DNA from: Williamsia limnetica
Lineage (GTDB): Bacteria > Actinomycetota > Actinomycetes > Mycobacteriales > Mycobacteriaceae
DNA: 64,000 bases
Reading direction: 5' to 3'
NCBI RefSeq assembly: GCF_003217475.1
Contig: NZ_QJSP01000022.1
Span: 1-64,000, forward strand
In this document: positions 10,446 to 48,611 of the stretch, piece after piece
Position numbering within the stretch: position 1 is the stretch's first letter
Layout of the letters: the number at the start of each line of letters is the position of its first letter
Made by a program: the position numbers and the translations under genes
Notes under the pieces: generated by a model
Seen by the model: the letters and a program-made list of their open reading frames with translations, nothing else
Database searches by the model: none
What the model was told of the DNA's origin: nothing

Positions 10446-11681
10446 TCACGCGGTGTTGCTGGGCTTTTCGCCGAGATCGATCAGGTGGCCCATCCGGTCG
10501 CGCTTGGTACGCAGGTACGCAATGTTCTCGTCAGTCACACGGCCGGGAACTCCGATCCGCTCCTGCACCACGATTCCGTTGCCGGCCAGAGCCGAGCACT
10601 TGTCGGGGTTGTTCGTGATCAACCGAACGTGCCGAGTACCGAGCTCGGCGAGAATGTGTGCGCCGACCGAGTAGTCGCGGCTGTCGATGGGTAGTCCCAG
10701 CTCGGCGTTCGCATCAACGGTGTCACGCCCGCGTTCTTGCAGCGAATAGGCCTCGAGCTTCCGGCCCAGTCCGATCCCGCGGCCTTCGTGGCCGCAGAGG
10801 TAGACGAGGACGCCCTTGCCTTCGGCGGCGATCAAGGTCAACGACTCACGTAGTTGATGTCCGCAGTCGCAGCGCAGCGATCCAGCGAGGTCTCCGGTGA
10901 GACATTCGCTGTGCAGCCTCACCAGCGGCGCCACGTCGGAGCGTTCCGCGACGTCACCCATCGTCAGCGCCAGGTGCTCGACTCCGGTGGTGTTGTCGAA
11001 GAATGCGTGTGCGCGAAAGTTCCCGTACTCCGTGGGCAGATCGGCGCTGCCACGACGTTGCAATGCTGGGCCTGCGGGTCGCATCACCTCGACGAGCTGA
11101 GCGACAGAGATCATCGGTAGCTGGTGCCGGTCTGCGAACTCACTCAGTGCAGCGCCGCGCAACATTCCACCGTCGTCGTCAATGAGCTCACCGATCACTC
11201 CCACCTCGGTGAGACCGGACAGCCGCATCAGGTCGACGGCGGCCTCGGTGTGCCCGGGCCGCTCCAGCACACCCCCGGCGCGGGCCCGAAGTGGGAAGAC
11301 ATGTCCGGGCATTCGGAGATCACTCTGCCGGGTCGCTGATGCCGCGAGAGCCCGGATGGTGTGGGCGCGATCAGCCGCGCTCACACCCGTGCCCGAGCCC
11401 AGGGCATCGACAGTGACGGTGAACGCGGTCCCGTGGGCGTCGGTATTGTCCTCGACCATCAAGGGAAGCCCTAGGTCGTCGGCTCGGCTCGCTCCCATCG
11501 GTACACAGATGATTCCGGTGGTATGGCGGACCATGAAAGCCAATCGGCCGGTGGTCGCGAACTCTGCCGCCATGATCAGATCGCCTTCGTTCTCACGATC
11601 CGGATCATCGACGACAACCACCATGCCGCCCGCTCGGAGCGCTCGCAGCGCGGCATCGATGTCTGGTCGGGCAGTGTTCAT
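10446..11681 (-). CDS. ribBA: Bifunctional DHBP synthase / GTP cyclohydrolase II
   Basis: A 411-residue RibBA that makes both precursors of riboflavin. The N-terminal half (about 1-200) is 3,4-dihydroxy-2-butanone-4-phosphate synthase, with DDPDRENEGDL and the GHVFPLRAR segment. The C-terminal half is GTP cyclohydrolase II, with zinc cysteines in SECLTGDLAGSLRCDCG and GHEGRGIGLGRK. I chose the ATG at 11681, which follows GGGGA and lies 16 bp past the flavin reductase stop. It is co-directional with that reductase. A housekeeping-type riboflavin gene inside a catabolic island suggests a dedicated flavin supply for the FMN-dependent monooxygenases. No FMN riboswitch is visible upstream. Confidence 0.95.
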   Translation of the reverse strand: MNTARPDIDAALRALRAGGMVVVVDDPDRENEGDLIMAAEFATTGRLAFMVRHTTGIICVPMGASRADDLGLPLMVEDNTDAHGTAFTVTVDALGSGTGVSAADRAHTIRALAASATRQSDLRMPGHVFPLRARAGGVLERPGHTEAAVDLMRLSGLTEVGVIGELIDDDGGMLRGAALSEFADRHQLPMISVAQLVEVMRPAGPALQRRGSADLPTEYGNFRAHAFFDNTTGVEHLALTMGDVAERSDVAPLVRLHSECLTGDLAGSLRCDCGHQLRESLTLIAAEGKGVLVYLCGHEGRGIGLGRKLEAYSLQERGRDTVDANAELGLPIDSRDYSVGAHILAELGTRHVRLITNNPDKCSALAGNGIVVQERIGVPGRVTDENIAYLRTKRDRMGHLIDLGEKPSNTA

Positions 11682-11697
11682 TGTGATCCCCGATCTG

Positions 11698-12189
11698 TCA
11701 GAGCTGGGTGAGTGCGTGAAATGCACGATCGCGATAGACCGTCGGTGGTGGGTTGCCCTGGAAGCACGCCGATACGGCGCCGACCAGGATTGTGTGATCG
11801 CCCCCCGGATGGCGAGCGTAGGTGCTGCAATCGAGGGTGATCGATGAGCCGCTCAGTCGCGGCAGGCCGCGGTGATCGGGCTCGAAGGAGCCGCCGGCGA
11901 ACTTGTCGGCGCCCCGCGTCGCGAACCGCAGTGCGAGATCTACCTGATCGGCGTGGATGATGTGCACGACCCAGTGTTCGGCCTCGGCGAAGACCGGATG
12001 GCATTCAGCGCCGGTCGAGAGGCACACCAGGATCAAGGCGGGATCGACTGACACCGAACAGAATGCGCTCGCGGTGAAACCCCATGACTTGCCGTCGGCG
12101 TCTACGGTGGTCACGATGGTGACACCGCTGGGAAACCGTGCCATCGCGTCTCGAAAACTGATGACCTGATCCATTTCGGGTGGTAGCAC
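11698..12189 (-). CDS. NAD(P)H:flavin reductase (HpaC/DszD-like)
   Basis: A 163-residue flavin reductase domain protein. Family blocks are FPSGVTIVTT, GFTASAFCSVSVDPALILVCL and the C-terminal GGDHTILVGAV with the GDH motif. It reduces free FMN or FAD for a partner monooxygenase. The start is GTG with GGAGG six bases upstream. It precedes ribBA by 16 bp, forming a reduced-flavin supply unit. Its likely clients are the LimB-type enzymes at 32423 and 45078. A second, diverged reductase is at 42001. Confidence 0.92.
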   Translation of the reverse strand: MLPPEMDQVISFRDAMARFPSGVTIVTTVDADGKSWGFTASAFCSVSVDPALILVCLSTGAECHPVFAEAEHWVVHIIHADQVDLALRFATRGADKFAGGSFEPDHRGLPRLSGSSITLDCSTYARHPGGDHTILVGAVSACFQGNPPPTVYRDRAFHALTQL

Positions 12190-12737: not shown

Positions 12738-13922
12738 ATGACCATCAATGCCGTGATCGTCGACGCGATCCGAAGCCCATCAGGAAAAGGCAAGCCCGGC
12801 GGGGCGCTGTCGGGTTTGCACCCTGTCAACATGTTGCAGCAAACCCTCGAAGAGCTCCTGCGCCGCAACGACTTCGATCCCGTTCTCGTCGACGACGTCA
12901 TCGCCGGGTGCGTGTCGCAGACCGGCGAGCAAGCCCTTAACATCGCACGGACGGCGGCGTTGGCGGCCGGACTACCGGAGTCGGTACCGGGCACCACCGT
13001 GGACCGCCAGTGCGGGTCGAGTCAACAGGCCGCGCACTTTGCCGCTCAGGGCGTCATCGCCGGCGCCTACGACGTGGTCATCGCGTGCGGTGTCGAGTCG
13101 ATGAGCAGGATTCCGATGGGTGCCAGTTCGCAGGGGCAGGATCCCAATGGCGCTCCTCTCGCTTCCAGATACCCGGAAGGTCTGGTCGGCCAGGGCATCT
13201 CGGCGGAACTGATCGCTGCGAAGTGGAAGCTCGACCGCACGACCCTCGACCAGTACTCCGCCCGCTCCCACCAGCTGGCCGCCAAGACGGTCGCCGACGG
13301 TGGGTTCGACAAGGAACTGATCTCGCTACAGCTGCCCGACGGCGCGCGACACACCGCCGATGAAACCGTTAGGGCGTCGACGACGGTGGACGGCCTCGGG
13401 AACCTTCGCCCGTCGTTCGAATCGGTGCAATTCGCGGAGCGCTTCCCCCAGATCAACTGGAGCATCACGCCTGGGAACTCGTCGCCGCTCACCGACGGCG
13501 CATCGGCGGTGCTGATCATGTCCGAGACAAAAGCGCGCGAACTCGGACTCACCCCGCGGGCGCGATTCCACTCGTTTGCGGTGACCGGTAGCGATCCGTT
13601 GTACATGCTGACCGGCGTCATCCCGGCCACCGAGAAAGTATTCGCTCGCTCCGGACTCTCGGTCGGCGACATCGACACGTTCGAGGTCAACGAAGCCTTC
13701 GCGCCGGTGCCGCTTGCATGGGCGCACGAGGTGGGTGCCGACCTCGACAGGGTCAACCCCCGCGGCGGTGCGATCGCGCTCGGACATGCTCTCGGCGCGT
13801 CGGGCACCCGACTGCTGACGACGATGCTCGGCAGCCTGGAGGCGACCGGCGGCCGCTATGGACTGCAAACGATGTGCGAGGGCGGCGGCATGGCGAACGC
13901 GACGATCATCGAACGGCTCTGA
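12738..13922 (+). CDS. Acetyl-CoA C-acyltransferase (FadA-type thiolase)
   Basis: A full-length 394-residue degradative thiolase. The nucleophilic cysteine C92 is in DRQCGSSQQA. NEAFAPV, GGAIALGHALGASGTR and the second cysteine in CEGGGMA complete the active site. It should cleave 3-ketoacyl-CoA with CoA to release acetyl-CoA or propionyl-CoA. An ATG with upstream GGAG supports the start. It contrasts with the thiolase-like pair at 17084 and 18266, which lack these cysteines, so ordinary thiolysis in this island is probably done by this enzyme. The paralogous TetR follows at 13990. Confidence 0.94.
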   Translation: MTINAVIVDAIRSPSGKGKPGGALSGLHPVNMLQQTLEELLRRNDFDPVLVDDVIAGCVSQTGEQALNIARTAALAAGLPESVPGTTVDRQCGSSQQAAHFAAQGVIAGAYDVVIACGVESMSRIPMGASSQGQDPNGAPLASRYPEGLVGQGISAELIAAKWKLDRTTLDQYSARSHQLAAKTVADGGFDKELISLQLPDGARHTADETVRASTTVDGLGNLRPSFESVQFAERFPQINWSITPGNSSPLTDGASAVLIMSETKARELGLTPRARFHSFAVTGSDPLYMLTGVIPATEKVFARSGLSVGDIDTFEVNEAFAPVPLAWAHEVGADLDRVNPRGGAIALGHALGASGTRLLTTMLGSLEATGGRYGLQTMCEGGGMANATIIERL

Positions 13923-16624: not shown

Positions 16625-17080
16625 TCAGACAGCGGGCTCGAAGTGTGCGATGTCGAGTATCTGACCGGACCGTTCTTCGGCCCAGACCGCGCGGACACGA
16701 GAGCCCTTGGGCAACTGGGACCGGATGTTCGCGGGGTCGGAGAAGTCGAGTCCGACGACGTAGTGCATGAGCAGAGTGTCTGCGCCGTCGAGCCTGATGC
16801 CGCCGATGGCGTACGGGGTCTTCGGGCCGCCGCGAAAGCCCTGCCAGGCCACGGTGAAGACCTCGAGATCGCCTTCGCCGGAGAGCTCAACCCACGTGTC
16901 GTTCGGGCGAAAGCTTTCCTCGCAATACGCCATCGGGGGAACATAGACCTTGTTGGAACCGCCGGTGTTGGCGTAGATCTTTTTGTCTTTGAGCCCGGTC
17001 ATGAACTTGCCCCAGGTCTCGCCGAGGTGGATGTCGTAGTGCAGATCCCAGTGGACCTGCTGGGTGGTCGGTGAAGTCAT
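16625..17080 (-). CDS. DUF35 OB-fold protein, partner of thiolase-like pair
   Basis: A 151-residue DUF35-type protein. The C-terminal OB-fold pattern is recognisable (TPYAIGGIRLDGADTLLMHY, then LPKGSRVRAVW). The N-terminal rubredoxin-like zinc ribbon is degenerate: only a single cysteine (AYCEES) remains where two CxxC pairs are usual. DUF35 proteins pair with thiolase-fold enzymes, for example Ltp2 with the DUF35 part of ChsH2 in steroid side-chain cleavage, and archaeal thiolase/HMG-CoA synthase. It starts 3 bp after the stop of the thiolase-like gene at 17084. It should be a structural or CoA-binding partner of that enzyme. Confidence 0.85.
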   Translation of the reverse strand: MTSPTTQQVHWDLHYDIHLGETWGKFMTGLKDKKIYANTGGSNKVYVPPMAYCEESFRPNDTWVELSGEGDLEVFTVAWQGFRGGPKTPYAIGGIRLDGADTLLMHYVVGLDFSDPANIRSQLPKGSRVRAVWAEERSGQILDIAHFEPAV

Positions 17081-17083
17081 GGT

Positions 17084-18265
17084 CTACCTGCTTTCTCTGG
17101 TGCTTTCGAAGACTGCGAGATTCTCGAACTGGAAGAATGTTCCGCCGGTGCCGTGGGCGAGTGCGCGGCGCGCGCCATCGACCTGCATGACGTCCGGTGC
17201 GTCCCCCAAGATCTGCCACGCAGCGTAGATGTACGGCGCCAGCTCTCCGGCCACCCCCGCATTGGTGCACTTGGGCCCACCCGACAGATTGACCGGGAGC
17301 GAGCCGCCGTAGCGACTCTCTGCAGACCTGATGAGGTCGATACCCTCGCCGGGCCCGCACAATTGCAGGGCCTCGAGCTGCATTGGCTGCATGTGCGCGT
17401 AGGGGGCGAAGACCTCGACGAGATCGAAGTCTTCTCGGGGATTGCGGATATCGGCCAATGAGTAAACGCGTCGGGCCAGGATTGCCAGATTCTCCATGAC
17501 GGCGAAATCGCCTTTGCCGCCACCGAGATACGGGTCGCCGGAGGTTCCGATCGCCTTGATGAGCGCCGGGGTGGTTCGCAGGTCTGCAGCTGATTCCCTG
17601 GTCGTCACCAACATCGCGTTCGCAGATGTCGAGACCGGGCAGACCATGGCCTGGGTCAGCGGGGACGACAACGGCGGAGATGCCAATACGTCCTCTACGG
17701 TCAGGGTGTATCGCAGATGCGCATACGGGTTGAGCGAGGCCTTTTCGTGGTCGGCGACCGCGATCGCCGCGTAGTCCTCGGCGGTGGTCCCGTGCCGTGC
17801 CTGGTAGGCGCTGGCAGCGAAGGCGCCCATGTGGAAACCGCCCATCCCCAGTGGCTGCTCCACGATCATGGGGGAGTTCGTGTTGATTGCCGCCTGCAGA
17901 TCCTGCGCACCGTAGAACGTCGGGCCGCCCAGACACAGCACGCGCTGGTGTGTTCCGGAGCGGACCATTCGCGCCGCAACCTGCATGAGGTTGCCGCCCG
18001 TGGTGCCACCGGTGTTGAGGACCACGACGGGAACGTCGGATCCGATGCCGAGTTGTCTCGTCTGGAACTTGCCGCCGAGCACGGTTCCCTCGAAACCGTC
18101 GATGTTGCCGACGACGATGGCGTCCAATGATGACGGACTCGCCCCGGCATGTTCGAGTGCGGCGTGTGCGGCTTCTCTGCAGAGTTCGGTGAACGATTTG
18201 GTCTGTTTGCGCGGAGAGGCTGCCTCGGTGATGCCCACTCCGGCGACCACAGCCTGATATGCCAT
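17084..18265 (-). CDS. Cysteine-less thiolase-like protein, subunit 1
   Basis: A 393-residue SCP2-thiolase-fold protein. Where thiolases have the nucleophilic Cys in a N-x-A-C-A-S-G-G pattern, this protein reads LNTGGTTGG, so the Cys is a Gly. The C-terminal region keeps LPVNLSGG but then has PKCTN instead of the GHP histidine motif. It therefore cannot do normal thiolysis. The family includes Ltp2-type retro-aldolases, which also lack the Cys. It is directly downstream of a second such protein (18266; no gap) and upstream of a DUF35 gene, so all three should form one complex. I propose a retro-aldol C-C lyase for a tertiary beta-hydroxyacyl-CoA. Confidence 0.85.
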   Translation of the reverse strand: MAYQAVVAGVGITEAASPRKQTKSFTELCREAAHAALEHAGASPSSLDAIVVGNIDGFEGTVLGGKFQTRQLGIGSDVPVVVLNTGGTTGGNLMQVAARMVRSGTHQRVLCLGGPTFYGAQDLQAAINTNSPMIVEQPLGMGGFHMGAFAASAYQARHGTTAEDYAAIAVADHEKASLNPYAHLRYTLTVEDVLASPPLSSPLTQAMVCPVSTSANAMLVTTRESAADLRTTPALIKAIGTSGDPYLGGGKGDFAVMENLAILARRVYSLADIRNPREDFDLVEVFAPYAHMQPMQLEALQLCGPGEGIDLIRSAESRYGGSLPVNLSGGPKCTNAGVAGELAPYIYAAWQILGDAPDVMQVDGARRALAHGTGGTFFQFENLAVFESTRESR

Positions 18266-19411
18266 CTACACGCCTTCCACGATGAGTACGGTGCTGTCGA
18301 GGACGACGGTCCCCGTGATGGTGTCGACGGAATGTGCCACCGCGGTGTGCAGGTTGTGGTCGGACTCCAGCCGTTCAATGACCTCGAGCAGACGCAGGGC
18401 CCCGTTGGCCAGCCCGGGGTAGTTTGTCGCTGCGCCGCCGGATGGGTTGATGTGTTCGGGCGTCAAGGATTTGTCGAGCCCAAGTGCTGCGAGAAGCGGC
18501 TGATGGAGTGCTGCTGACGGGGCGGTGAACTCGACCAGATCGACGGTGTCCGCGGCGTCGCCGATCCCGGACGACCGGTACGCGCTCGCCGCGGCCCGTG
18601 CAGTCGACGCACCGGGATCCTTGAGCCAGTCGGTGTTCTCGAGATAGCTTCCCGTCGCGTGCCCGACTCCGGTGATGAGGGCGCCACGCGCTGTCAATCG
18701 GGCAGCTCGCGCCGGTGAGGCGAGTACCACCGCCGCTGCGCCTGTGCTGTACGCGGGAAGCATGAGTTCGGTCAACGGCCAGGCCGACGGGGGTGATCCC
18801 AGGATCTTCTGCGCGCTGGCCAATTCGGGCCGCATGGACCGCGCTGATCCGGCGCCGGCCGCGATGGCACGGGAGGTCAGTTCGGCCAGCTCCTCGAGCG
18901 TGGTGTGCTGCTGTTCGATGGCCCAGGCGGCGTGCAGACCGTACGACGTTCGGGTGGTCATGCCCACGGGCCGCGCGAAGTGCGCGTCGAAGGCCAGGTT
19001 CGACAACTGATCGAGAAACTCCTGCCGCAGGGCTCCGCGAGTCGACGTCTCGGGGTTGTAGGCGCCGACGGCGACCGCAATGTCGACATCGCCCGATGAG
19101 ATCGCCTGTGCGGCAGCAATGATGGCGGTACCGACATCGGATTCCAGCCGGTAGGAGTCTTTCAGGTATCCGCCCGATGCGGAATTGGTGAGCCCGCTGG
19201 AGATGCTGCGGCCGTCCAAAATGTCCATCGATGCGGTGATCGTCAGACCGATCTCGTTCCGATTGACGTTCGCGGCGCGTAGCGCATCCGCTGTGGCCTG
19301 ATAGACGAGTTCGTCGACCACCGCGTTGTGCTCCTCGCGCCACGAGGTCGTCGCGATCCCGGCGACGTGGACGGGGTCGAAGGGGCGATGCCGGCGGAGC
19401 GGGTCAACCAC
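18266..19411 (-). CDS. Cysteine-less thiolase-like protein, subunit 2
   Basis: A 381-residue thiolase-fold protein, more diverged than its neighbour. The N-terminal half has VHVAGIATTSW and SSGLTNSASGG; at the nucleophile position it reads ESDVGTAIIAAAQ, again without Cys. The C-terminal part has HINPSGGAATNYPG, a relic of the thiolase N-x-x-G-G motif without the GHP histidine. The GTG start is 123 bp downstream of the ligase stop on the same strand, and the gene abuts 17084-18265. A heteromeric complex with 17084 and the DUF35 protein is likely; the two thiolase-like chains may split catalytic and structural roles. Confidence 0.82.
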   Translation of the reverse strand: MVDPLRRHRPFDPVHVAGIATTSWREEHNAVVDELVYQATADALRAANVNRNEIGLTITASMDILDGRSISSGLTNSASGGYLKDSYRLESDVGTAIIAAAQAISSGDVDIAVAVGAYNPETSTRGALRQEFLDQLSNLAFDAHFARPVGMTTRTSYGLHAAWAIEQQHTTLEELAELTSRAIAAGAGSARSMRPELASAQKILGSPPSAWPLTELMLPAYSTGAAAVVLASPARAARLTARGALITGVGHATGSYLENTDWLKDPGASTARAAASAYRSSGIGDAADTVDLVEFTAPSAALHQPLLAALGLDKSLTPEHINPSGGAATNYPGLANGALRLLEVIERLESDHNLHTAVAHSVDTITGTVVLDSTVLIVEGV

Positions 19412-19534: not shown

Positions 19535-21049
19535 CTACACGAAGCGCTTTTTCAAGAGAGGCCTGTCGATCTTGTTGGTTGCCGTGCGGGGTATCGAGTC
19601 GACGATTTCGATCCGGCGGGGTCTCTGGAGCCCACGCAGGTTGGGATCGGACTCGCAGTACGCTGCGATATCCGCGGCACTGACACCGGGTTCGGTCGGT
19701 ACGACGATGGCAGTCACTTGATTCGAGAGCCGCTCGTGCGGGGTACCGATGACGGCAACCTCGGCGACGAGCGGTGATGCGCTGAGAAAACCCTCGACCA
19801 TCTGTGGAAAGACGTTCTCACCGCCGCTGATGATCATGTCGTCCGTGCGGTCCACGTAGTAGAGGTATCCGTCTTCGGCTCGGCGAACGAGATCGCTTGT
19901 CCGGAACCATCCTTCGGGAGTGAACTTATTCGAGTTCGCCTCCGGGAGTTGCCAATAGCCTGGTGTCACCGCGTCACCGCGCACCCAGAGTTCACCGATG
20001 TCACCGGTACCGACGTCTTCCCCGAGAGGCGTGACGATGCGGATCTCGACGATCTGTTCCAGTGGTTTGCCCATCGAACCCTCGCGGCGGTCCTCATGCG
20101 GAGGTTCGGTGATCGAGACACCGCTCTGCTCGGTCTGCCCGTAGATGTTGACCGGCACGATGTTCGTGGCGGCGGTCAACGCCGTCAGGCGGCTCTGGGG
20201 CAGCGCCGACCCGCCGATCGCACACACCCGGATCGAATCGAGTGGCAATCGGGTGTCGCCGAGTTCGTTGACGATGTCGATCATCATCGCGGGTACGAGA
20301 GCTGTCACGGTGATCTGCAAGCGCGCTGCATCCTTGAGCCACTCCCGCACCGCCCACCTGCGCAGCGTCGTGGTCCCGCCGGCCAGCAGCATCGGCAACA
20401 GGACCAACTGGAGGCCACCCACGTGGAACAGCGGTGTACAGACCAGGGCGCGGTCATCGCGCGTGATCGACCAGACGTCGATGGCGGCCTCGCTGACGGC
20501 GCCACAGTTGCGATGGGTCTGTCGGACACCTTTGGGCTGCCCGGTGGATCCACTCGTGTACATGAGTACGGCGTCGTCGCTGTCGAGGCGTGGCACGACG
20601 TCGGTGATCGGTTCGGTGGTCGAGATGATCGCCGGAAGCGTGGTGAAGACGCCCTCGGTGTCGTCCGACGAGACGATGCGACCCAGAATGTCGAGCCCCT
20701 CGAGGGCGTCCACGGTGCGGGGGACGTCGACCGCGGTGGTGAAGACCCATTGCACATCGGCGTCGATCGTGGTGTGGCGCAAGGCGGACGGATGGAACAG
20801 GTAGTTGTAGGGAACAACCACGGCGCCCGCCTGCCAGATCCCCAGCAACGTGACGATCCACTCGGGTTGGTTGTGCATCAGGATGCCGACGCGTTGCCCG
20901 GGCAGAACGCCTCGGTCGACCAGAAACCGTGCCACCCGCGCAGCCCTGTCGAAGAGGTCGACGTAGGTCACTTCGTGCGTGTCGTGGCGGATCGCCACTG
21001 CGTTCGGAGTCCGGTCGGCAGTCCGGCGGAGGTTGGTGTAGAAGTTCAA
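19535..21049 (-). CDS. AMP-forming acyl-CoA ligase
   Basis: A 504-residue ANL-family ligase that activates a carboxylic acid to its CoA thioester with ATP. The P-loop is MYTSGSTGQPKG, the hinge region is WFRTSDLVRRAEDGYLYYVDR, and the catalytic lysine is in RTATNKIDRP near the C-terminus. The start is TTG at 21049 with GGAAGGAAG upstream; the frame is open further but without a better site. It heads the minus-strand set with the thiolase-like pair and DUF35. It may activate the keto acid formed after ring opening. Divergent from the enoyl-CoA hydratase gene. Confidence 0.92.
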   Translation of the reverse strand: MNFYTNLRRTADRTPNAVAIRHDTHEVTYVDLFDRAARVARFLVDRGVLPGQRVGILMHNQPEWIVTLLGIWQAGAVVVPYNYLFHPSALRHTTIDADVQWVFTTAVDVPRTVDALEGLDILGRIVSSDDTEGVFTTLPAIISTTEPITDVVPRLDSDDAVLMYTSGSTGQPKGVRQTHRNCGAVSEAAIDVWSITRDDRALVCTPLFHVGGLQLVLLPMLLAGGTTTLRRWAVREWLKDAARLQITVTALVPAMMIDIVNELGDTRLPLDSIRVCAIGGSALPQSRLTALTAATNIVPVNIYGQTEQSGVSITEPPHEDRREGSMGKPLEQIVEIRIVTPLGEDVGTGDIGELWVRGDAVTPGYWQLPEANSNKFTPEGWFRTSDLVRRAEDGYLYYVDRTDDMIISGGENVFPQMVEGFLSASPLVAEVAVIGTPHERLSNQVTAIVVPTEPGVSAADIAAYCESDPNLRGLQRPRRIEIVDSIPRTATNKIDRPLLKKRFV

Positions 21050-21270
21050 CGTTTCTTCCTTCCGTCGCGAGTGATCGCGACATCGCCCGGCGTTCACAAG
21101 GCGCTGACCTCGATGTTTCCCGAGCGTAATCCGATCGACCGACCAAAAGTTGTCGCACTATGCGACGCGGGACTCGCTCGAGGTGTCCCGGAAAGCAACA
21201 GATTTGCGGCCGGGCGAATGCATACGGTCGAAGTGAACAACCCGGTTCGAGGAGCAGGAGGCTCAGACAC

Positions 21271-22068
21271 ATGGTGGACAATCCGGCCGATGACACCGCG
21301 GACGGCGATGTCAGGCTCGACCTTTCCGATCACGTCGCGACGATCACCATCGATCGTCCGTCGGCGCACAATGCGTTGACCGTGGACATGATCCGGACGT
21401 TGGCGGCCGCCATCGATAGCGTTCGCGGCGATGACGAAGTCCGGGCTGTGATCGTCACCGGCGCCGGCGACAAGGCCTTCAGTGCCGGGGGAGACCTGGG
21501 TGAGCTGATCCCTCGGCTCACGGCCGGGGAGCTCGAGGTTCTCATCCCGGACGCGTCAAAACGCTTCTTCTCTGACGTCTACAAGCCGATCATCGCCGCT
21601 GTCAACGGATTCTGCCTGGCGGGCGGGCTGGAGATATTGTTGGGTACTGATCTGCGTATCGCGGCTGATCACGCGACGTTCGGTCTGCCCGAGGTGCACT
21701 GGGGTGTCATCCCGGGGGGTGGTTCCCACGTCCGGCTACCTCAGCAACTCGCCTGGCCACAAGCGATGCACCTTTTGCTCGCGGCAGAGTCGATCGATGC
21801 GGCAGAAGCGTTGCGGATCGGCCTGATCAACGAGGTGGTCGCGCCCGATGAGGTGATGCCCCGGGCGCGGGAGCTCGCTCAGAAGATCGCCGCCCACGCA
21901 CCCGTCGCCGTTCAGACCGCGAAGGAGATCGCCGTCAAGGCTCTGGGCAACGAACCGCGTTTCAATCTGGAGACCGCGCTGAACGAGCGGGTGCTGGCCA
22001 CGCGCGACGCTCGCGAAGGACCGAGAGCATTCATCGAAAAACGTCAACCTCGATATGAGGGCAAGTGA
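21271..22068 (+). CDS. Enoyl-CoA hydratase/isomerase (crotonase fold)
   Basis: A 265-residue crotonase. The oxyanion loop FSAGGDLGEL and the second glycine GGLEILLG are present. Both catalytic acids are seen, in GGLE and GLPEVHWG. It should hydrate a trans-2-enoyl-CoA, though isomerase or other crotonase chemistry is possible. I chose ATG 21271, preceded by GGAG. It is followed 19 bp later by an acyl-CoA dehydrogenase, consistent with consecutive beta-oxidation steps. Confidence 0.9.
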   Translation: MVDNPADDTADGDVRLDLSDHVATITIDRPSAHNALTVDMIRTLAAAIDSVRGDDEVRAVIVTGAGDKAFSAGGDLGELIPRLTAGELEVLIPDASKRFFSDVYKPIIAAVNGFCLAGGLEILLGTDLRIAADHATFGLPEVHWGVIPGGGSHVRLPQQLAWPQAMHLLLAAESIDAAEALRIGLINEVVAPDEVMPRARELAQKIAAHAPVAVQTAKEIAVKALGNEPRFNLETALNERVLATRDAREGPRAFIEKRQPRYEGK

Positions 22069-23269: not shown

Positions 23270-23754
23270 TTGAAGTCCCGCAAATCTGTCGTCCGACGGG
23301 GTCCGCTCCCGCTGCACCTCGACGTCGAACCAACTGGCAAGGACCAGGCGACGCGGCGAGGCGCCGGTGGTCATCGTTGCAGTGATGCGTATCCCAGGGC
23401 AGACCACGATTTTCGAGACGGCGGCGGTCAACCGGTCATCAAGGCTCTCCAGTCGGCGGATCAGGGCACGGTCGCTTCCGAGGTGCATACCGTGCGGAGA
23501 TTCTGCAGGAACCCGAGGCCATCTGCGGCGTTCGAGCTCGCGTGGATCACCGTGACCGCCGCCGAAATGCTTGTCGACCCTGTCTCGTGAGAAAAACGGA
23601 CAATGTGATTCGGGTCATGGTGTGTCTCTGAGTCCGGAACGGTGATGACTCAGAGTGCGACAACGTGGATCCGATCTGAGATGTCACAGTCGTGAGGATG
23701 ATGCGCGTGCGTTAGATGCGCGACCCAACTCTCGACAGGAGGCCACGCGGAGCG
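23270..23754. other. Gap without a supportable gene
   Basis: About 485 bp between two acyl-CoA dehydrogenase genes. Short open frames exist on both strands, but none has a ribosome binding site or recognisable sequence. The long minus-strand frame entering from 22031 is the antisense of the upstream gene. The last 100 bp probably hold the promoter of the next gene, whose AGGAGG is at 23737-23742. Confidence 0.5.
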
Positions 23755-24942
23755 ATGGCAGACGACGACATCTCACTGTTGCGCAAAGAAATCGGTGAGT
23801 TCTTGCAGACTCATGACCCGGCCGACACCCCTCGGACCGAGTTCTTACGGGCCCGTTTCGACGCCGGACTGGCATGGGTGCACTATCCGGAGGGCTTGGG
23901 CGGGCGGGGTCTCGATGCTGCTCTGCAGCCGGCCGTCGACGCGGAGTTCGCGGCCGCGGGCGCACCGGACAACGCCCCGCACCGCAACGTGATCGGCCTG
24001 GGGATGGCGGCACCGACGTTGCTGAAATACGCGACCGAGGCGGATCAGCGTCGCTGGCTCCGACCGTTGTGGACCGGCGAGGAGATCTGGTGCCAGCTGT
24101 TCAGTGAACCCGGGGCCGGTTCGGACCTGGCCACAGCAGGGACCCGGGCTGTTCGCGAGGGCGATGACTGGGTGGTCAACGGGCAGAAGGTATGGACCTC
24201 GCTCGCCCACGAGGCGTCGTGGGCGCTGCTGATCGCGCGTACCGACCCCGACGTCCCCAAACATCGAGGACTGTCGTACTTTGTCTGCGATATGTCGTCG
24301 CCAGGCATAGAGGTGCGCGCACTGCGGCAACTCACCGGCGAAGCCGAGTTCAACGAAGTCTTCCTGGGCGATGTGCGGGTTCCCGACGCGAATCGTCTAG
24401 GCGAACTGGGGGAGGGGTGGAAGGTCACCCAGACGACCCTGATGAACGAAAGGGTCGCGATCGGGGCTGGGATCGCACCCCGTGAAGGCGGCCCCATCGG
24501 GTTTCTCACCCAAGCCTGGCGTGATCAGACCGGCGCGCGCTCCGGGGCACTGCACGATCGGACGCTGTCCCTCTGGGCGCGCGCGGAGGCGGCCCGGCTC
24601 ACCACGGCACGACTGAGACAGCAGATGGCCGCGGGCCTGCCCGGACCAGAGGGTTCGGGTGCCAAGCTGAGTTACGCGCTTCTGGCCCAGGATGTCTCGA
24701 ACGCAGAGGTCGACCTGCAGGGTCATCTCGGCATGCGTTTCGACGACTACTCCTCGCGGCGGCCCGATCTCGACGAGGAAGGCCGCCGACCGGCTGGCTA
24801 CAGGTTTCTGCGGACCAAAGGTAACTCCATCGAGGGCGGCACCTCCGAGATCATGCGCACCATCATCGCCGAGCGGGTACTCGGGCTGCCGGCCGAGCCA
24901 CGAGTCGATGTGGACATCCCCTGGAAGGAACTCAAGCGATGA
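23755..24942 (+). CDS. Acyl-CoA dehydrogenase, catalytic subunit of a likely heteromer
   Basis: A 395-residue acyl-CoA dehydrogenase. CQLFSEPGAGSDLA and VNGQKVWTS are the flavin and substrate motifs. SIEGGTSEIMRTIIAERVLG retains the EGGT Glu region. The ATG at 23755 has AGGAGG upstream. Its end overlaps the next dehydrogenase gene by four bases (ATGA). Paired genes of this kind encode alpha2-beta2 dehydrogenases that act on polycyclic or branched acyl-CoA, such as FadE28-FadE29 in steroid degradation. This is probably the subunit carrying the catalytic base. Confidence 0.9.
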   Translation: MADDDISLLRKEIGEFLQTHDPADTPRTEFLRARFDAGLAWVHYPEGLGGRGLDAALQPAVDAEFAAAGAPDNAPHRNVIGLGMAAPTLLKYATEADQRRWLRPLWTGEEIWCQLFSEPGAGSDLATAGTRAVREGDDWVVNGQKVWTSLAHEASWALLIARTDPDVPKHRGLSYFVCDMSSPGIEVRALRQLTGEAEFNEVFLGDVRVPDANRLGELGEGWKVTQTTLMNERVAIGAGIAPREGGPIGFLTQAWRDQTGARSGALHDRTLSLWARAEAARLTTARLRQQMAAGLPGPEGSGAKLSYALLAQDVSNAEVDLQGHLGMRFDDYSSRRPDLDEEGRRPAGYRFLRTKGNSIEGGTSEIMRTIIAERVLGLPAEPRVDVDIPWKELKR

Positions 24943-26075
24943 CGACAGTGATCAACCCGGCCATCCCTGACCTGCTCTACTCCGAGACCGAGGAGTCGTT
25001 GCGAGAAGCCTTGGTGGATGCGCTCGATCGTTCGAATGATTGGCCGGTCAGGCTGGCCCGTTCGGAATCAGAAGCAACGGTCGACTCGACCTTGTGGCGG
25101 ACACTCGCGGCCGACATGGGACTGGCCGGGCTGCCGATCGGCGAGCCCGAAGGCGGCGCCGGTGCCTCGTGGCGGGAGTCGGCGGTGGTCATGGAGGAAC
25201 TCGGGCGGCGGGTCGAGGCGGTGCCGTTCCTTGGGTCCGCGATCACCGCGACTGCGTTGCTCGACGCGGTCGGCGGCGGCGACGTGCTCCGCCAGGTCGC
25301 GGCCGGCGAGATGGTCGCGGTGTTGGCGGTGGCTGCCGACACCCCACCGTGGCATCGGCCGCACGCTGTGGTTCGTTCGGATACCGGGGCCCTGGTCGGG
25401 CGGGTTCCGTCGGTCACTGACGCGTTGATCGCAGACCTGTTTCTCGTAGTGGTCAGTGATGAGCTGTATGCCGTACCGGCACGGTCTGTCTCAGTCACCC
25501 CTGTGACGTCTCTGGATATGACCCGGCAATTGGCGGACCTGCATTTCGACGATGCAGAAGGCATGCTGATCGCCTCCGGCCCGGACGTCACATTGGCAGC
25601 CGAACGTGCGCTGACCCTGTCGGTCGCGATGCTCGCGTCCGAGCAGCTCGGCGTGGCCGAGGCCTGTCTGACGATGGCCGTCGAGTACCTCAAAGAGCGG
25701 CGGCAGTTCGGACGTGTCCTCGGCTCCTATCAAGCGCTCAAGCACCGCCTCGCGGATCTATGGGTCGACATCACCCACGCTCGCGCGGCGGCGCGGCATG
25801 CTGCCGGGTGCGCCGCAGACGACAATCCGGACTTGCCGATCGCAAGTGCATTGGCGGGCATCGTCTGTGCTGAGGTGGCACTGAAAGCGGCCCAGGAGTG
25901 CATTCAACTGCACGGCGGGATCGGCTTCACCTGGGAACATCCGGCCCACCTGTTCCTCAAGAGGGCCAAGTCATCGACATTGATGTTCGGTGGGGTCGAT
26001 GGCCGGCGCGAGCATCTAGGGACGCTCGTCGGAATCACCAGCGATGCTGGCTGGGAAGGCGACTCGACACCATGA
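24939..26075 (+). CDS. Acyl-CoA dehydrogenase, second subunit
   Basis: A 378-residue acyl-CoA dehydrogenase homologue. The middle is diverged and the C-terminal part keeps KERRQFGRVLGSYQALKHRL and QLHGGIGFTWEHPAHL. It lacks the EGT base motif at its C-terminus, as expected for the non-catalytic partner in a heterotetramer. It overlaps the preceding gene by four bases and the following SDR by four bases (ATGA at 26072), so the three genes are translationally coupled. It should bind part of the FAD or substrate site together with 23755. Confidence 0.88.
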   Translation: MTTVINPAIPDLLYSETEESLREALVDALDRSNDWPVRLARSESEATVDSTLWRTLAADMGLAGLPIGEPEGGAGASWRESAVVMEELGRRVEAVPFLGSAITATALLDAVGGGDVLRQVAAGEMVAVLAVAADTPPWHRPHAVVRSDTGALVGRVPSVTDALIADLFLVVVSDELYAVPARSVSVTPVTSLDMTRQLADLHFDDAEGMLIASGPDVTLAAERALTLSVAMLASEQLGVAEACLTMAVEYLKERRQFGRVLGSYQALKHRLADLWVDITHARAAARHAAGCAADDNPDLPIASALAGIVCAEVALKAAQECIQLHGGIGFTWEHPAHLFLKRAKSSTLMFGGVDGRREHLGTLVGITSDAGWEGDSTP

Positions 26076-27660: not shown

Positions 27661-28068
27661 CTATGGCAGAGCTACGGTTGCGGCGCCATCGAGGACCCGC
27701 GTTCCATCGGCGAGGTCGGCCCAAACATCGCACACCGCAGCGCCTCCCGAGATATCAGTGACCACTCCACCCGCTATCACCTCGTCGCCCGCTCGGACGT
27801 TTCCGCGGAAGCGGCACTTGATCCCCGAGAGCGCGGCACCCGATCCGACCCAAGCGGTGAGCATGTCGACGATGTAGGCCATCGTCACGCCGCCCTGGTT
27901 GATCTCGCGATCCCCGAGTCCGGCAGCGGCCACCGCGTCCAGGTCGAAGTGAATCGGGTTGGGATCTCGCAGGATCAAGGCCATCTGGCGAATGTGCTCG
28001 CCACTGACCGCCTTGACCTGGAAACGCGGGATCTCGGTGCCGATTGCGATAGTGGTCCCGATCGTCAT
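27661..28068 (-). CDS. MaoC-like hydratase, small subunit
   Basis: A 135-residue hot-dog protein with the hydratase motif in LRDPNPIHFDLDA (Asp and His) and NQGGVTMAYIVDML. It overlaps the preceding gene 28065-28511 by four bases. Two short MaoC-fold genes in tandem suggest a heteromeric hydratase like ChsH1-ChsH2, where the chain with the D-x-x-x-x-H motif is catalytic. It is the last gene of the operon running from the regulator at 31649 through the dehydrogenase at 29748. It should hydrate a bulky or branched enoyl-CoA. Confidence 0.85.
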   Translation of the reverse strand: MTIGTTIAIGTEIPRFQVKAVSGEHIRQMALILRDPNPIHFDLDAVAAAGLGDREINQGGVTMAYIVDMLTAWVGSGAALSGIKCRFRGNVRAGDEVIAGGVVTDISGGAAVCDVWADLADGTRVLDGAATVALP

Positions 28069-28511
28069 TCTCGTCCTCTCTTGAACAGGTACACACTTTC
28101 GACAGAGCCCATGTCACGTTCCGTGTCGTCGAACACGGTGACCACCACCGTGACGCTGTCGAGGACTGACCCGTCCCGGGTGGTGCGGCGACCTGTGTCG
28201 GTGATCGTAGCGGTGGTCCGGTAGGTTGAACCCACTTCGAGCGGATGTCGTTGTTCGATCTCGCAGGTGCCGAACAGCAATGTGTCCTGGGGTCGTTTGT
28301 GAGCCAGCGTGCAGAGCTCCTCGACACTGATTCCCATGCCGCGCAATGCGATCACCAGGAACCAGAGGGAATGTGCCTGCGTTCGGTCATCGCTCGGACG
28401 GAGTAGCGCGTGGTCTGCGATCCGGCTCTCGTATTCTGTGACGGTCGTGTGGTCGCCGGGTAATTCGCGTCCGGCGAGGTCCGGACTCAGTTCGGCCAGA
28501 GATGTGGTCAC
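28065..28511 (-). CDS. MaoC/FAS1-like dehydratase partner subunit
   Basis: A 148-residue protein resembling the N-terminal hot-dog half of double-hot-dog MaoC proteins. DHALLRPSDDRTQAHSLW and LLFGTCEIEQRHPLEVG are the recognisable parts; the catalytic D-to-H pattern of MaoC is not clear, so it may be the non-catalytic partner. The GTG start has AAGGGAG upstream; the longer frame runs into the acyl-CoA dehydrogenase gene. It is coupled to 27661-28068. Substrate is inferred from the adjacent dehydrogenase. Confidence 0.78.
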   Translation of the reverse strand: MTTSLAELSPDLAGRELPGDHTTVTEYESRIADHALLRPSDDRTQAHSLWFLVIALRGMGISVEELCTLAHKRPQDTLLFGTCEIEQRHPLEVGSTYRTTATITDTGRRTTRDGSVLDSVTVVVTVFDDTERDMGSVESVYLFKRGRE

Positions 28512-31649: not shown

Positions 31650-32370
<721 letters not shown>

Positions 32371-32422: not shown

Positions 32423-33586
32423 ATGGCAAGCAACTACGGAAATGTCGAGTTCGGGGCGTTCTTGGCGCCTTGGCACAAAGCCGAGACCGACGCGAACTAC
32501 GCCATCCATTCCGACCTCGAACTGGTCGAGCACATGGACCGACTCGGTTTCGCGGAGTTCTGGATCGGCGAGCACCATTCGGGGGGAGTCGAGATCGTCT
32601 CTTCACCGGAGGTCTTCCTCGCCGCCGCTTCGCAGCGGACCTCGCGGATCAAGCTTGGTCTCGGCGTGGTGTCACTGCCTTATCACCACCCGTTCATGGT
32701 GGCCGAGCGTCTCGTGCTCCTGGACCACTTGTCGCGCGGGCGTGTGGTTTTCGGTGCGGGACCGGGGCAGCTGGTCGATGACGCCAACATTCTCGGTATC
32801 GACCCGGTCCAGAGCCGTAAAAAGATGGAAGACGCGTTCGACGTCATTCACCGGTTGCTCAACGGTGAGACCGTCACCAAACAGACCGATTGGTTCACGT
32901 GCAACGACGCTTACCTGCACGTCACGCCATACTCGACGATAGACAAGGCCGTCACCGCCACCGTGTCGCCGACCGGTCCGAAGCTTGCCGGAAAGTACGG
33001 TGCAGGGATCCTCTCCCTGGCTGCGACCAACCCGGATGCGATTGGCCTGCTCGCCGACCATTGGCAGATCGCGGAGCAGCTGGCGGCGGAGAACGGCCAG
33101 GTGGTCGATCGACGGAACTGGCGCCTGACCGGGATCATGCACGTTGCCGAAACTGAAGAGCAGGCACGAGAGGACGTCCGGCACGGGCTGCTCTATCTGC
33201 TGAACTACCTCTCCGAGGTGACCCCCGGATTCCCGAAGTTCCCCGATGTGGACTCCCTGATCGACGGGATCACCAGCAGTGGTCTGGCTGTGATCGGAAC
33301 ACCGGAAATGGCCATCGCGCAGATCGAACGGCTGCAAGACGCTTCGGGTGGTTTCGGCAAGTTCCTCGTGCTCCACGGTGAGTGGGCCCGCCCGGCGGCG
33401 GGGCTCAAGAGCTTCGAACTCATCGCCGAGAAGGTGGCACCAGTCTTCAACGGCACGGCCGCGTCCCGCCGGCGCGGATACGACCAGACGGTCAACAGCA
33501 ACCGTGCGGGAGCGGCTGCTACTGAAGCGGGTCAGGCCGAAGCTCGGCAGCGGTTCGATGCCGAACGCAGCGTCGTTGCCAACTGA
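32423..33586 (+). CDS. limB: Limonene 1,2-monooxygenase-like flavin monooxygenase
   Basis: A 387-residue luciferase-family (TIM-barrel) FMN-dependent monooxygenase. Typical blocks are MDRLGFAEFWIGEHHSGG, SLPYHHPFMVAERLVLLD and VIGTPEMAIAQIERLQ. From memory it aligns along its length with limonene 1,2-monooxygenase LimB of R. erythropolis DCL14. It would epoxidise the ring double bond, using reduced flavin from a separate reductase. The ATG has AGGAG upstream. Its product is the substrate of LimA encoded just before it. A hairpin follows downstream. Confidence 0.92.
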   Translation: MASNYGNVEFGAFLAPWHKAETDANYAIHSDLELVEHMDRLGFAEFWIGEHHSGGVEIVSSPEVFLAAASQRTSRIKLGLGVVSLPYHHPFMVAERLVLLDHLSRGRVVFGAGPGQLVDDANILGIDPVQSRKKMEDAFDVIHRLLNGETVTKQTDWFTCNDAYLHVTPYSTIDKAVTATVSPTGPKLAGKYGAGILSLAATNPDAIGLLADHWQIAEQLAAENGQVVDRRNWRLTGIMHVAETEEQAREDVRHGLLYLLNYLSEVTPGFPKFPDVDSLIDGITSSGLAVIGTPEMAIAQIERLQDASGGFGKFLVLHGEWARPAAGLKSFELIAEKVAPVFNGTAASRRRGYDQTVNSNRAGAAATEAGQAEARQRFDAERSVVAN

Positions 33587-46766: not shown

Positions 46767-46910
46767 GTTACTATAAAACCTCGGTCGTTTCTTGCGACGC
46801 TCATGTCGGAACAGCACTTGATACCGACGTTGCCAGCGGTGAGACTTTCGCTCTCGACACTAGTGCTTTGGACAGTTATGCCGGAATACGTAGGGACCTA
46901 TTTTCGTGTT

Positions 46911-48611
46911 ATGACTCATTCACCTTCAACGGCCGACGCGAAGCGTCGACCGACTGAGATCGTCGACGTGGTCGTTGTCGGCGCAGGATTCGGCGGACTA
47001 TACGCGCTAAAGCGCATACGGGATGCGGGCATGTCGGTTCGCGTCTTCGAGGCCGGATCCGGCGTCGGTGGCACGTGGTTTTGGAACCGGTATCCTGGCG
47101 CTCGTTGCGACATTGAAAGTGTCGACTATTCTTATTCCTTTTCCGAAGATCTGCAGATTGATTGGAATTGGACAGAAAAATACGCCAAGCAATCCGAAAT
47201 TTTGGCGTATCTGAACCACGTCGCCGATCGCTTCGACCTCCGCGGCGACATCGTTTTGAACACCCGCGTTCTGTCGGCCCATTTCGACGAGGCAGGAGCG
47301 ATGTGGAGCGTGACGACGTCCGACGGCAGGACGGTCTCGGCCACCTACTGCGTGATGGCCTCCGGGGTCCTGTCGTCGATCAAGGAGCCAGACTTCCCCG
47401 GCCTGGCCGACTTCAGTGGCGATGTCTACCAGACGTCGCGGTGGCCTGATGGTGGCGTCGACTTCTCAGGCCGGCGAGTTGCCGTCATCGGAACCGGCTC
47501 GACTGGCGTGCAGGCAATTCCTCTCATCGCCAAGCAGGCTGCGCAGCTCACCGTGTTCCAACGGACGCCCAACTTCAGCGTGCCGGCCAGGAACCGGCCA
47601 CTGGCCGCGGGCGAGCTTGATCAAGTTCGGGCGACCTACGCCGAGCGGCGTCAGTCGGCTCGGATGTCACTGGCTGGATTTCCTGAGGTACCGAGCCCCG
47701 GGAGGGCGGTTGACCACACCCCCGAGCAGCGGCAGGAAATCTATGAGGCGGCTTGGGCTGCGGGTGGCGGGCCCCGGCTGCTGCGAGCATTCAGCGACAT
47801 CGGGACCAGCCCCGAGGCCAATGCTTCCGCGGCGGACTTCATCAGGAGCAAGATCGCCGAGATAGTGAAAGACCCGGACACCGCTGATCGACTGAGCCCG
47901 AAAACGTATCCGCTCGGCACCAAGCGCATCTGTGTGGACACGAACTACTTCGACACCTACAACCGGCCGAACGTCACCCTCGTTGACGTCATGGCCGACC
48001 CGATCGTGGAGTTCTCTCCCACCGGTCTGCGCACTACCGGAGCCGAGTACGATTTCGACGCAGTGGTCCTCGCTCTAGGTTTCGACGCCGTCACCGGCGC
48101 GCTCATGGAGATCGACATCAAGGGACGCGACGGTGAGAAACTGACCGATCGCTGGAAGCATGGTCCCCGTAGCTACCTCGGAGTCGCGGTTTCCGGCTTC
48201 CCGAACCTGTTCACCGTGACAGGGCCCGGCAGCCCATCGGTCCTTGGCAATGTCGTCACCTCGATCGAACAACACGTCGACTTCATCACCGACTGCATCG
48301 AGTTTGCCAATCGCAAAGGCCACGACATCATTGAGGCTGCCGATGCCGCTGAGGACAGTTGGGTCAGACACGTCGCGGAAAAAGCTTCGGAGAGTCTCAT
48401 CTCCACCTCGACCACCTCGTGGTACCGCGGAGCAAACATTCCGGGCAAGCCGCTGGTCGTGTTGCCGTACACCGGCGGTGTGGGAACTTTCCGAGAGATC
48501 TGTGAGCGTATCGCGCGCAATGACTTCGAAGGATTTCTGTTCGGTGCAGCTAAAGACTCGTTGGATGACTTGGCCGACGACACCGTCGCCGAGGCCAGAC
48601 AATGGCGATGA
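46911..48611 (+). CDS. Baeyer-Villiger flavin monooxygenase
   Basis: A 566-residue FAD/NADPH monooxygenase of the cyclohexanone monooxygenase type. Two Rossmann motifs are seen: GAGFGG at 24-29 and GTGSTG at 194-199. GTWFWNRYPGARCD is typical. The type I fingerprint F-x-G-x-x-x-H-x-x-x-W-P reads FSGDVYQTSRWP (168-179), with Gln174 where His is expected. It should insert oxygen next to a cyclic ketone to give a lactone. Start ATG 46911 was chosen by homology; the ribosome site is weak and an upstream in-frame ATG at 46803 exists. It overlaps the next gene by ten bases. Confidence 0.9.
   Translation: MTHSPSTADAKRRPTEIVDVVVVGAGFGGLYALKRIRDAGMSVRVFEAGSGVGGTWFWNRYPGARCDIESVDYSYSFSEDLQIDWNWTEKYAKQSEILAYLNHVADRFDLRGDIVLNTRVLSAHFDEAGAMWSVTTSDGRTVSATYCVMASGVLSSIKEPDFPGLADFSGDVYQTSRWPDGGVDFSGRRVAVIGTGSTGVQAIPLIAKQAAQLTVFQRTPNFSVPARNRPLAAGELDQVRATYAERRQSARMSLAGFPEVPSPGRAVDHTPEQRQEIYEAAWAAGGGPRLLRAFSDIGTSPEANASAADFIRSKIAEIVKDPDTADRLSPKTYPLGTKRICVDTNYFDTYNRPNVTLVDVMADPIVEFSPTGLRTTGAEYDFDAVVLALGFDAVTGALMEIDIKGRDGEKLTDRWKHGPRSYLGVAVSGFPNLFTVTGPGSPSVLGNVVTSIEQHVDFITDCIEFANRKGHDIIEAADAAEDSWVRHVAEKASESLISTSTTSWYRGANIPGKPLVVLPYTGGVGTFREICERIARNDFEGFLFGAAKDSLDDLADDTVAEARQWR

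Follow-up and report, generated by a model that had tools for sequence, protein, structure and literature searches.

A limonene-linked pair of cysteine-less thiolase-fold proteins in Williamsia limnetica as a candidate heteromeric retro-aldolase

The three-gene module described here lies in the first 64,000 nucleotides of contig NZ_QJSP01000022.1 of Williamsia limnetica, a stretch that we refer to as the window. It encodes two different thiolase-fold proteins (chains A and B) and a DUF35 protein (chain D). We found that both thiolase-fold chains have lost the nucleophilic cysteine, that chain A is related to Ltp4 and chain B to Ltp3, that the order and neighbors of the genes are conserved, and that the module is linked to genes for LimA and a LimB-type enzyme. 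Judged from the sequences, there is a good case that the trio is a variant of the Ltp3/Ltp4 heteromeric aldolase and a candidate for a missing step in limonene-type degradation.

Two thiolase-fold chains without the catalytic cysteine and a DUF35 partner

Chain B matches the Pfam families Thiolase_N and Thiolase_C_1, and its best NCBIfam match is PRK08313, with an E-value of 3.7e-64 and 217 of the 514 bits required by the cut-off. No Pfam family was found for chain A at E ≤ 0.001; its best NCBIfam match, PRK07937 ('lipid-transfer protein'; 1.9e-25), scores 90 bits where the cut-off is 419. A profile built from 22 chain A sequences matched thiolases in PDB, with a best E-value of 3.4e-13. Since the NCBIfam thiolase and lipid-transfer matches, the PDB profile matches and the alignment to Ltp4 described below all agree, we assign the thiolase fold to chain A as well.

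The 22 sequences come from the window and 21 other loci, a set that includes near-copies (for example, L093/L095, L097/L098 and L101–L103). The nucleophilic cysteine is missing from 22 of 22 A chains and 22 of 22 B chains of this clade, those of the window included, and the histidine of the GHP motif is likewise absent throughout (0/22 in A, 0/22 in B). The absence of the cysteine from both chains is not a chance event. The first-pass annotation of this DNA had pointed out that the two window chains lack both residues, and this is borne out across the entire clade. An ordinary thiolase, be it biosynthetic, degradative or of the SCP2 type, can be ruled out, because neither A nor B has the cysteine and the GHP histidine.

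Chain D matches the Pfam family OB_ChsH2_C (PF01796; 9.6e-10), which represents the oligonucleotide/oligosaccharide-binding (OB) half of DUF35. The zinc ribbon (zf-ChsH2) was not matched by Pfam in the window protein and was matched in the orthologs from L043 and L044. By sequence reading, all four zinc cysteines are kept in 8 of the 22 D chains, and some or all are lost in the remaining 14, the window's among them. The loss of the zinc cysteines is thus lineage-specific, neither diagnostic of the module nor a mark of function. The same annotation had counted it among the features of the system, which is correct for the window protein and does not hold as a diagnostic trait.

The three genes are packed tightly. 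At the A/B junction (GTG-TAG-ATG), the TAG stop codon of A directly abuts the ATG of B, and at the B/D junction (TAG-ACC-ATG) only three bases separate the TAG stop of B from the ATG of D. This packing suggests that the genes are likely transcribed as one unit. Promoter and terminator scans gave counts barely or not above those in shuffled sequences (1 and 3, with 0.6 and 2.3 expected). The order A-B-D and the common strand are conserved in all 21 other loci. At one of them, on a plasmid of Rhodococcus qingshengii CX-1 (L089, 22315–25467), the D gene is interrupted by an IS21-like insertion sequence (IS1415), so that the annotated D ends short and more D-like sequence lies on the far side of the transposase. 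The module is present in seven Rhodococcus plasmid records, and the six annotated ones all label chain A 'hypothetical protein'. A Megablast search of window positions 12000–34000 against plasmids returned only short pieces of 72–77% identity in the ten records listed out of 11, and a single scan of genome contigs yielded two loci.

Chains A and B are divergent relatives of Ltp4 and Ltp3

Profile comparison with hhalign aligned A to Ltp4 with an E-value of 5.3e-32 (351 columns) against 5.9e-17 for Ltp3, and B to Ltp3 with 2.2e-54 against 8e-26 for Ltp4. Chain by chain, then, A is nearest to Ltp4 and B to Ltp3. The genome of W. limnetica contains 19 matches to B, counting B itself and A. At one place (G000:C2), a B paralog stands beside an A paralog and a double-DUF35 gene in the order DD-A-B. 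This Ltp4/Ltp3 pair scores above the curated cut-offs (553 bits with PRK07937 and 724 bits with PRK08313), whereas both window chains fall far below them. We take PRK08313 to be the Ltp3-type and PRK07937 the Ltp4-type family, an assumption based in part on this same pair.

A tree was built by a quick method from 104 of 146 pool proteins, with support from the Shimodaira–Hasegawa-like approximate likelihood-ratio test (SH-aLRT), no bootstrap, midpoint rooting and long branches flagged. The pool was restricted to proteins of 300–480 residues, with duplicate and overlapping loci skipped. Separately, four A candidates had been set aside: L007 and L038 (cross-matches to B), L023 (borderline) and L031 (start-site error). 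The window A clade, the window B clade, Ltp3 and Ltp4 are each set apart by a branch with SH-aLRT support of 100. The A clade, Ltp4 and 11 further chains share one side of a branch with support of 97, and the other side holds four other chains (L080, L084, L085 and L109) with the E-x-D motif described below. The B clade is not joined directly to Ltp3.

Matches to A at 1e-10 were found in 43 of 101 genomes, that of W. limnetica included, and most of the resulting loci adjoin B- and D-like genes. The two-chain design is thus an old one with a wide distribution, and the window trio represents one of its divergent branches. In a phylum-wide sample of 396, 13 further genomes matched A weakly (4e-43 to 8e-41), and their chains fell outside the window clade in the tree.

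Related arrangements came to light along the way. Other Actinomycetota encode more tandem pairs of cysteine-less thiolase-like proteins (L080, L084, L085, L087, L107, L108 and L110–L113), most of them with E-x-D in one chain; to judge by their sequences, these pairs are a larger, unexplored set of putative two-chain enzymes. Moreover, a second branch of the module itself (L092, 22316–26770; L093; L095; L105; L106) has a cysteine-containing thiolase-like gene with an HDAF motif downstream, and in L092 and L093 a second OB-fold gene is annotated by the module.

Active-site residues

To place the residues, the chains were aligned together with thiolase-like proteins from the same genome, two of which were picked by motif as Ltp2-type (YDHF) and Sal-type (YDCY); the sequence groups compared were delimited by chosen bit-score and identity cut-offs. 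Conservation of the main positions is given in Table 1. In B, the nucleophile position is taken by glycine, and the position of the GHP histidine by Asn335 (Asn in 22/22 chains of the B clade and in 26/26 Ltp3 chains). B departs from Ltp3 at Phe286, and its GHP loop carries an invariant cysteine.

In A, Glu90 and Asp92 form an E-x-D motif. The placement of Glu90 exactly at the cysteine position follows from an ungapped reading back from the following helix; MAFFT inserts a three-residue gap, and the register is therefore alignment-dependent. The motif recurs in 13 of 15 further partner chains (L038 and L111 are the exceptions) and, over the printed alignment rows, in 61 of 63 partner chains. 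In the column of Ltp2 Tyr294, A has Thr296 (Thr or Ser in 22/22 A-clade chains, His in 20/26 Ltp4 chains). At the YDHF/YDCY site, the motif reads FAPY in B and TAPS in A. As for Ltp2 Tyr344, B has no tyrosine as its counterpart, and Tyr331 of A, in the GHP histidine column, lies near the tyrosine of the Ltp2 loop from the same genome and is at most a possible counterpart of it.

The module is linked to limonene genes

To see how the module is distributed relative to limonene genes, we searched 401 genomes of the family, evenly drawn from a larger group, for the A clade at 1e-40 and for LimA at 1e-25. The A clade occurs in 15 of the 401 genomes, four of which are the profile's own rows, and LimA in six, all of them among the 15. 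The hypergeometric probability of this overlap is 9e-10 when unstratified and at most 1.7e-5 when stratified by genus, the stratum sizes being hand-counted minima. Matches to the LimB-type protein of the window at 76–100% (76–80% in the five other genomes) fall in the same six genomes that have LimA; the next among the matches listed stands at 54%, and the cut was chosen after this gap had been seen. As a marker, the LimB-type protein at E ≤ 1e-90 proved useless, with matches in at least 123 of the 401 genomes. In all six genomes, the LimB-type gene is on the same contig as A, about 13–58 kb away, and in five of six this is also true of LimA, at about 5–65 kb. In the window, both genes start 12–13 kb from A. 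The limonene link of the module is therefore strong.

Genomic neighborhood

The neighbors of the module (Table 1) include acyl-coenzyme A (acyl-CoA) dehydrogenases, hydratases, ligases and a canonical thiolase, and the window also holds short-chain dehydrogenases/reductases (SDRs) of the mycofactocin-coupled kind. Homologs (at least 30% identity) were sought within 10 kb of A at the 21 other loci: the canonical thiolase was found at 15, the tandem acyl-CoA dehydrogenases at 13, the MaoC protein at 12, its small partner and FadD at 11 each, LimA at three and the LimB-type enzyme at none. The PDB entry 1NWW, matched by the epoxide hydrolase, is the LimA enzyme of R. erythropolis; the name LimB does not come from a database match.

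Table 1. Genes of the module, active-site positions and neighboring genes in the window
Feature	Position	Strand	Remarks
Chain A, Ltp4-like thiolase-superfamily protein	18266-19411	-	381 aa, GTG start
Chain B, Ltp3-like thiolase-superfamily protein	17084-18265	-	393 aa
Chain D, single-domain DUF35 (OB_ChsH2_C) protein	16625-17080	-	151 aa, zinc Cys lost
Glu90-x-Asp92 of chain A (LESD), at or beside nucleophile position	19136-19144	-	E-x-D in 22/22 clade A, 26/26 Ltp4
Tyr331 of chain A, GHP histidine position	18419-18421	-	Tyr in 21/22 clade A (Phe in one); in Ltp4, Asn 23/26, Arg 3/26
Gly87 of chain B, nucleophilic-Cys position (NTGG)	18005-18007	-	Gly in 22/22 clade B, 26/26 Ltp3
Phe286 of chain B, position of Ltp2 Tyr294 / SCP2-thiolase His of HDCF	17408-17410	-	Phe in 22/22 clade B; Tyr in 26/26 Ltp3
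Cys333 of chain B, GHP loop (C-T-N)	17267-17269	-	Invariant in 22/22 clade B
Canonical degradative thiolase	12738-13922	+	Thiolase_N and Thiolase_C; Cys, GH and CxGxG-like motif by reading
Acyl-CoA ligase (FadD-like), upstream of A, same strand	19535-21097	-	AMP-binding, 5.3e-83
Acyl-CoA dehydrogenase, first of tandem pair	23716-24942	+	Pfam
Acyl-CoA dehydrogenase, second of pair	24939-26075	+	Best NCBIfam IpdE2, 5.8e-55, 187 bits, below cut-off of 450
MaoC-type hydratase candidate	27661-28068	-	64% identity to annotated MaoC (Pfam MaoC) of Rhodococcus sp. DMU1
Small partner of MaoC protein, start uncertain	28065-28511	-	62% identity to DMU1 gene adjoining its MaoC
Limonene-1,2-epoxide hydrolase (LimA ortholog)	31813-32370	+	PDB 1NWW, 2.5e-57
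LimB-type luciferase-family monooxygenase	32423-33586	+	Bac_luciferase, 9.3e-45
Baeyer-Villiger-like enzyme	46803-48611		Nearest NCBIfam model PtlE, 300 bits, below cut-off of 1100

Several neighbors deserve mention in their own right. The tandem dehydrogenases, the second of which is nearest IpdE2, sit in a terpene cluster and possibly make up a steroid-type heteromeric dehydrogenase. The MaoC-like protein and its small partner resemble a two-part hydratase analogous to ChsH1–ChsH2; the DMU1 homolog of the small partner gave neither a Pfam nor a PDB match. A RibBA-type riboflavin gene (10446–11726) sits in the degradation cluster as if supplying flavin to the monooxygenases. A RibBA homolog is found within 10 kb of A at six of the 21 loci, a flavin reductase homolog also at six, and both at five. 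Finally, R. ruber MSA14 has the module twice, once on each of two plasmids (L090 and L094), in both cases near putative Baeyer–Villiger oxygenases and NAD(P) transhydrogenase genes.

Proposed function and alternatives

We consider it probable, on the strength of sequence and genome comparisons, that A, B and D together make up a heteromeric retro-aldolase like Ltp3/Ltp4. It would be adapted to cyclic monoterpenes, in whose lower pathway it would cleave tertiary 3-hydroxyacyl-CoAs. The reaction, the substrate and the formation of a complex are all predictions, as are the catalytic residues, for which Glu90, Asp92 and Tyr331 of A and Cys333 of B are the candidates. The activated intermediate entering these steps would presumably be 3-isopropenyl-6-oxoheptanoyl-CoA. 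Opening of the limonene or carveol ring is reported to yield a heptanoate whose beta carbon bears an isopropenyl group and which is then oxidized and activated with CoA (PMC4097962). The tandem acyl-CoA dehydrogenase (23716–26075) would produce the 2-enoyl-CoA, and MaoC (27661–28511) or a crotonase-type hydratase (21160–22068) would hydrate it to the tertiary 3-hydroxyacyl-CoA. Because a tertiary alcohol cannot be oxidized to a ketone, thiolysis is blocked at this point. A/B/D would then cut the C2–C3 bond to give acetyl-CoA and a ketone, and the canonical thiolase (12738–13922) would serve later rounds. Retro-aldol cleavage would be the chemically natural exit for a tertiary alcohol; Ltp2 takes this route, and Ltp3–Ltp4 is proposed to do so. 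The scheme fits well with the window chains, both of which lack the residues needed for thiolysis, and with the canonical thiolase retained nearby.

Chain D would staple the chains together and shape the pocket, as in ChsH2–Ltp2 and Shy–Sal, and A and B may pair with each other, or each may form a homodimer with D holding the two together, the latter being the arrangement of PhlA and PhlC. Since the base tyrosine of Ltp2 is replaced by Phe in B, the acid–base work would fall to another residue of B (Cys333) or to Glu90, Asp92 or Tyr331 of A. A bolder version of this idea, which we put forward only tentatively and regard as rather doubtful, is that the module is a third retro-aldol solution within the thiolase fold. 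The catalytic center would have moved to A, where Glu90 (in place of the cysteine), Asp92 and the GHP-loop Tyr331 would do the acid–base work, Cys333 of B would assist, and the classical tyrosine of B would be lost. The enzyme would be the missing carbon–carbon cleaving step of the lower limonene/carveol pathway, and E-x-D would generally identify an ancient family of aldolases that need two chains.

A number of observations weigh against the assignment as a monoterpene retro-aldolase. The catalytic residues of Ltp2 (Tyr294 and Tyr344) and Sal (Tyr302 and Cys304) are not retained as such in A or B, with Tyr331 of A at most a possible counterpart of Tyr344, and therefore their mechanism cannot be transferred to these chains. 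Structure prediction was of no help: AlphaFold gave an unusable model of A alone (3 alignment rows; mean predicted local distance difference test score (pLDDT) 36.4, predicted template modeling score (pTM) 0.40) and an uninformative one of A-B-D read through as a single chain (4 rows; mean pLDDT 28.6, pTM 0.21), with rows drawn from the window and the loci L039 and L040. At eight of the 21 loci, the tandem dehydrogenase is not within 10 kb of A, so that substrates may differ; it lies just past 10 kb in L090 and L094 and was not seen in L096 (a 19-kb stretch) or in L092, L093, L095, L105 and L106. LimA is missing from nine of the 15 module genomes, one of the six LimA copies (that of G043) has an internal stop, and the genomes in the co-occurrence count are related and not fully independent. 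Furthermore, for the limonene degrader Castellaniella, ordinary beta-oxidation-like steps have been proposed for the isopropenyl-branched intermediate (PMC4109377).

The nine module genomes without LimA also feed the alternative that the enzyme is indeed a heteromeric aldolase, with another branched or alicyclic acyl-CoA as its main substrate (derived, for example, from menthol, cyclic ketones or naphthenic acids) and limonene as one feeder of several. The plasmid copies in R. ruber MSA14 point the same way, being near two putative Baeyer–Villiger oxygenases (45–48% to that of the window), alpha/beta hydrolases and transhydrogenase genes; in the stretches fetched, no limonene gene is annotated and tblastn revealed no LimA homolog. 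The branch found in R. opacus and R. rhodochrous, too, has a different neighborhood. Yet close LimA and LimB-type genes are found only together with the module, mostly linked to it, and in the window the neighbors include LimA, the LimB-type enzyme and mycofactocin-coupled SDRs. On balance, we see this alternative as possible and rather unlikely.

It is less probable still that A/B/D is a CoA-dependent carbon–carbon ligase, an acyl transferase or a decarboxylase-like enzyme and not an aldolase. The superfamily does include such reactions, and the PhlABC acylase likewise combines two thiolase-fold chains with DUF35 (PMC6392133). However, PhlC keeps the cysteine nucleophile, which neither window chain has, and the acyl-CoA dehydrogenases, hydratases and thiolase nearby make a degradative neighborhood. 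Least of all would we expect a second sterol side-chain copy of Ltp3/Ltp4 or a degenerate, non-catalytic scaffold. Kinship to Ltp3/Ltp4 and the loss of the known catalytic residues would agree with such a role, but the genome already has a separate pair scoring above the cut-offs that the window chains miss, and the clades are apart; scores, clade and context count against the sterol copy. As to a dead scaffold, it would presumably have no need for the active-site positions that are invariant in both chains over 22 loci. The reading of the trio as a monoterpene-adapted heteromeric aldolase therefore stays our preferred one.

Comparison with known systems

In sterol degradation, Ltp3–Ltp4 has been called a 'heteromeric aldol-lyase' for C24-branched side chains (PMC6678751), and both proteins are listed as aldol lyases elsewhere (PMC6593523). 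Like them, the window module places two unlike thiolase-fold chains side by side together with DUF35 (at 21 of 21 orthologous loci), and neither chain has a nucleophilic cysteine. Unlike Ltp3–Ltp4, its chains score below the subfamily cut-offs and form clades of their own, they have FAPY (B) and TAPS (A) where Ltp3 has YVPF and Ltp4 has HAPF/Y, and a tyrosine sits in the GHP loop of A. Compared with the Ltp3/Ltp4 set of the same genome, the module has a single DUF35 domain rather than two, its genes run A-B-D rather than DD-A-B, and its surroundings are terpene-related.

Like Ltp2 with ChsH1–ChsH2 of the igr operon, the module joins DUF35 to the thiolase fold, here in a putative aldolase, alongside an acyl-CoA dehydrogenase and a MaoC hydratase, and chain B, like Ltp2, has glycine at the cysteine position. 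Sal–Shy, a bile acid aldolase, similarly pairs the thiolase fold with DUF35 and has glycine at that position. The roles of the catalytic residues of Ltp2 and Sal have been described (PMC12329534). Both systems differ from the window module in having one thiolase chain: in Ltp2, Tyr294 (in YDHF) and Tyr344 are catalytic and DUF35 is a domain of ChsH2, and in Sal the catalytic residues are Tyr302 and Cys304 (YDCY; PMC12329534), neither of which is present in the window chains. PhlABC, a Friedel–Crafts acylase, and the archaeal complex of thiolase, 3-hydroxy-3-methylglutaryl-CoA (HMG-CoA) synthase and DUF35 resemble the module in combining two thiolase-fold chains with a DUF35 protein, which in their case holds the chains together (PMC6392133). 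Unlike the window module, with Gly87 in B, they keep the catalytic cysteine in the thiolase-type chain (Cys88 is the nucleophile of PhlC, and PhlA and PhlC form two homodimers). In addition, their second chain corresponds to HMG-CoA synthase and their roles are biosynthetic (PMC6392133).

These comparisons also settle the remaining proposals of the first-pass annotation. It had seen a new arrangement in the two different thiolase-like chains, which Ltp3–Ltp4, PhlABC and the archaeal complex precede and of which the same genome holds an Ltp4/Ltp3/double-DUF35 set. Its idea of an Ltp2-like retro-aldolase survives in part: a cysteine-less thiolase-fold aldolase is the best reading, but the catalytic base of Ltp2 is not kept, and the comparison of active-site tyrosines that it called for gave Phe286 of B and Thr296 of A at the position of Tyr294. 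The limonene context that it assumed is real, given that the LimA and LimB-type genes start 12–13 kb from A and that, among the 401 family genomes, LimA was found only in those with the A clade. Recurrence of the module in clusters without branched substrates, which it named as a refutation, may or may not apply to the nine module genomes that lack LimA. Among the matches listed in a literature search that mostly covered papers outside subscription, neither the terpene-linked branch nor an aldolase of limonene degradation was described. Thus, the two-chain design has a precedent in sterol degradation, and the terpene-linked branch with different active-site residues appears to be undescribed.

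Implications

As a linked and co-inherited candidate enzyme, the putative A/B/D aldolase makes a gap in limonene-type degradation directly testable. Moreover, it points to thiolase-fold aldolases whose active-site residues differ from those of Ltp2 and Sal, a group that would be useful for enzymology and for carbon–carbon biocatalysis.

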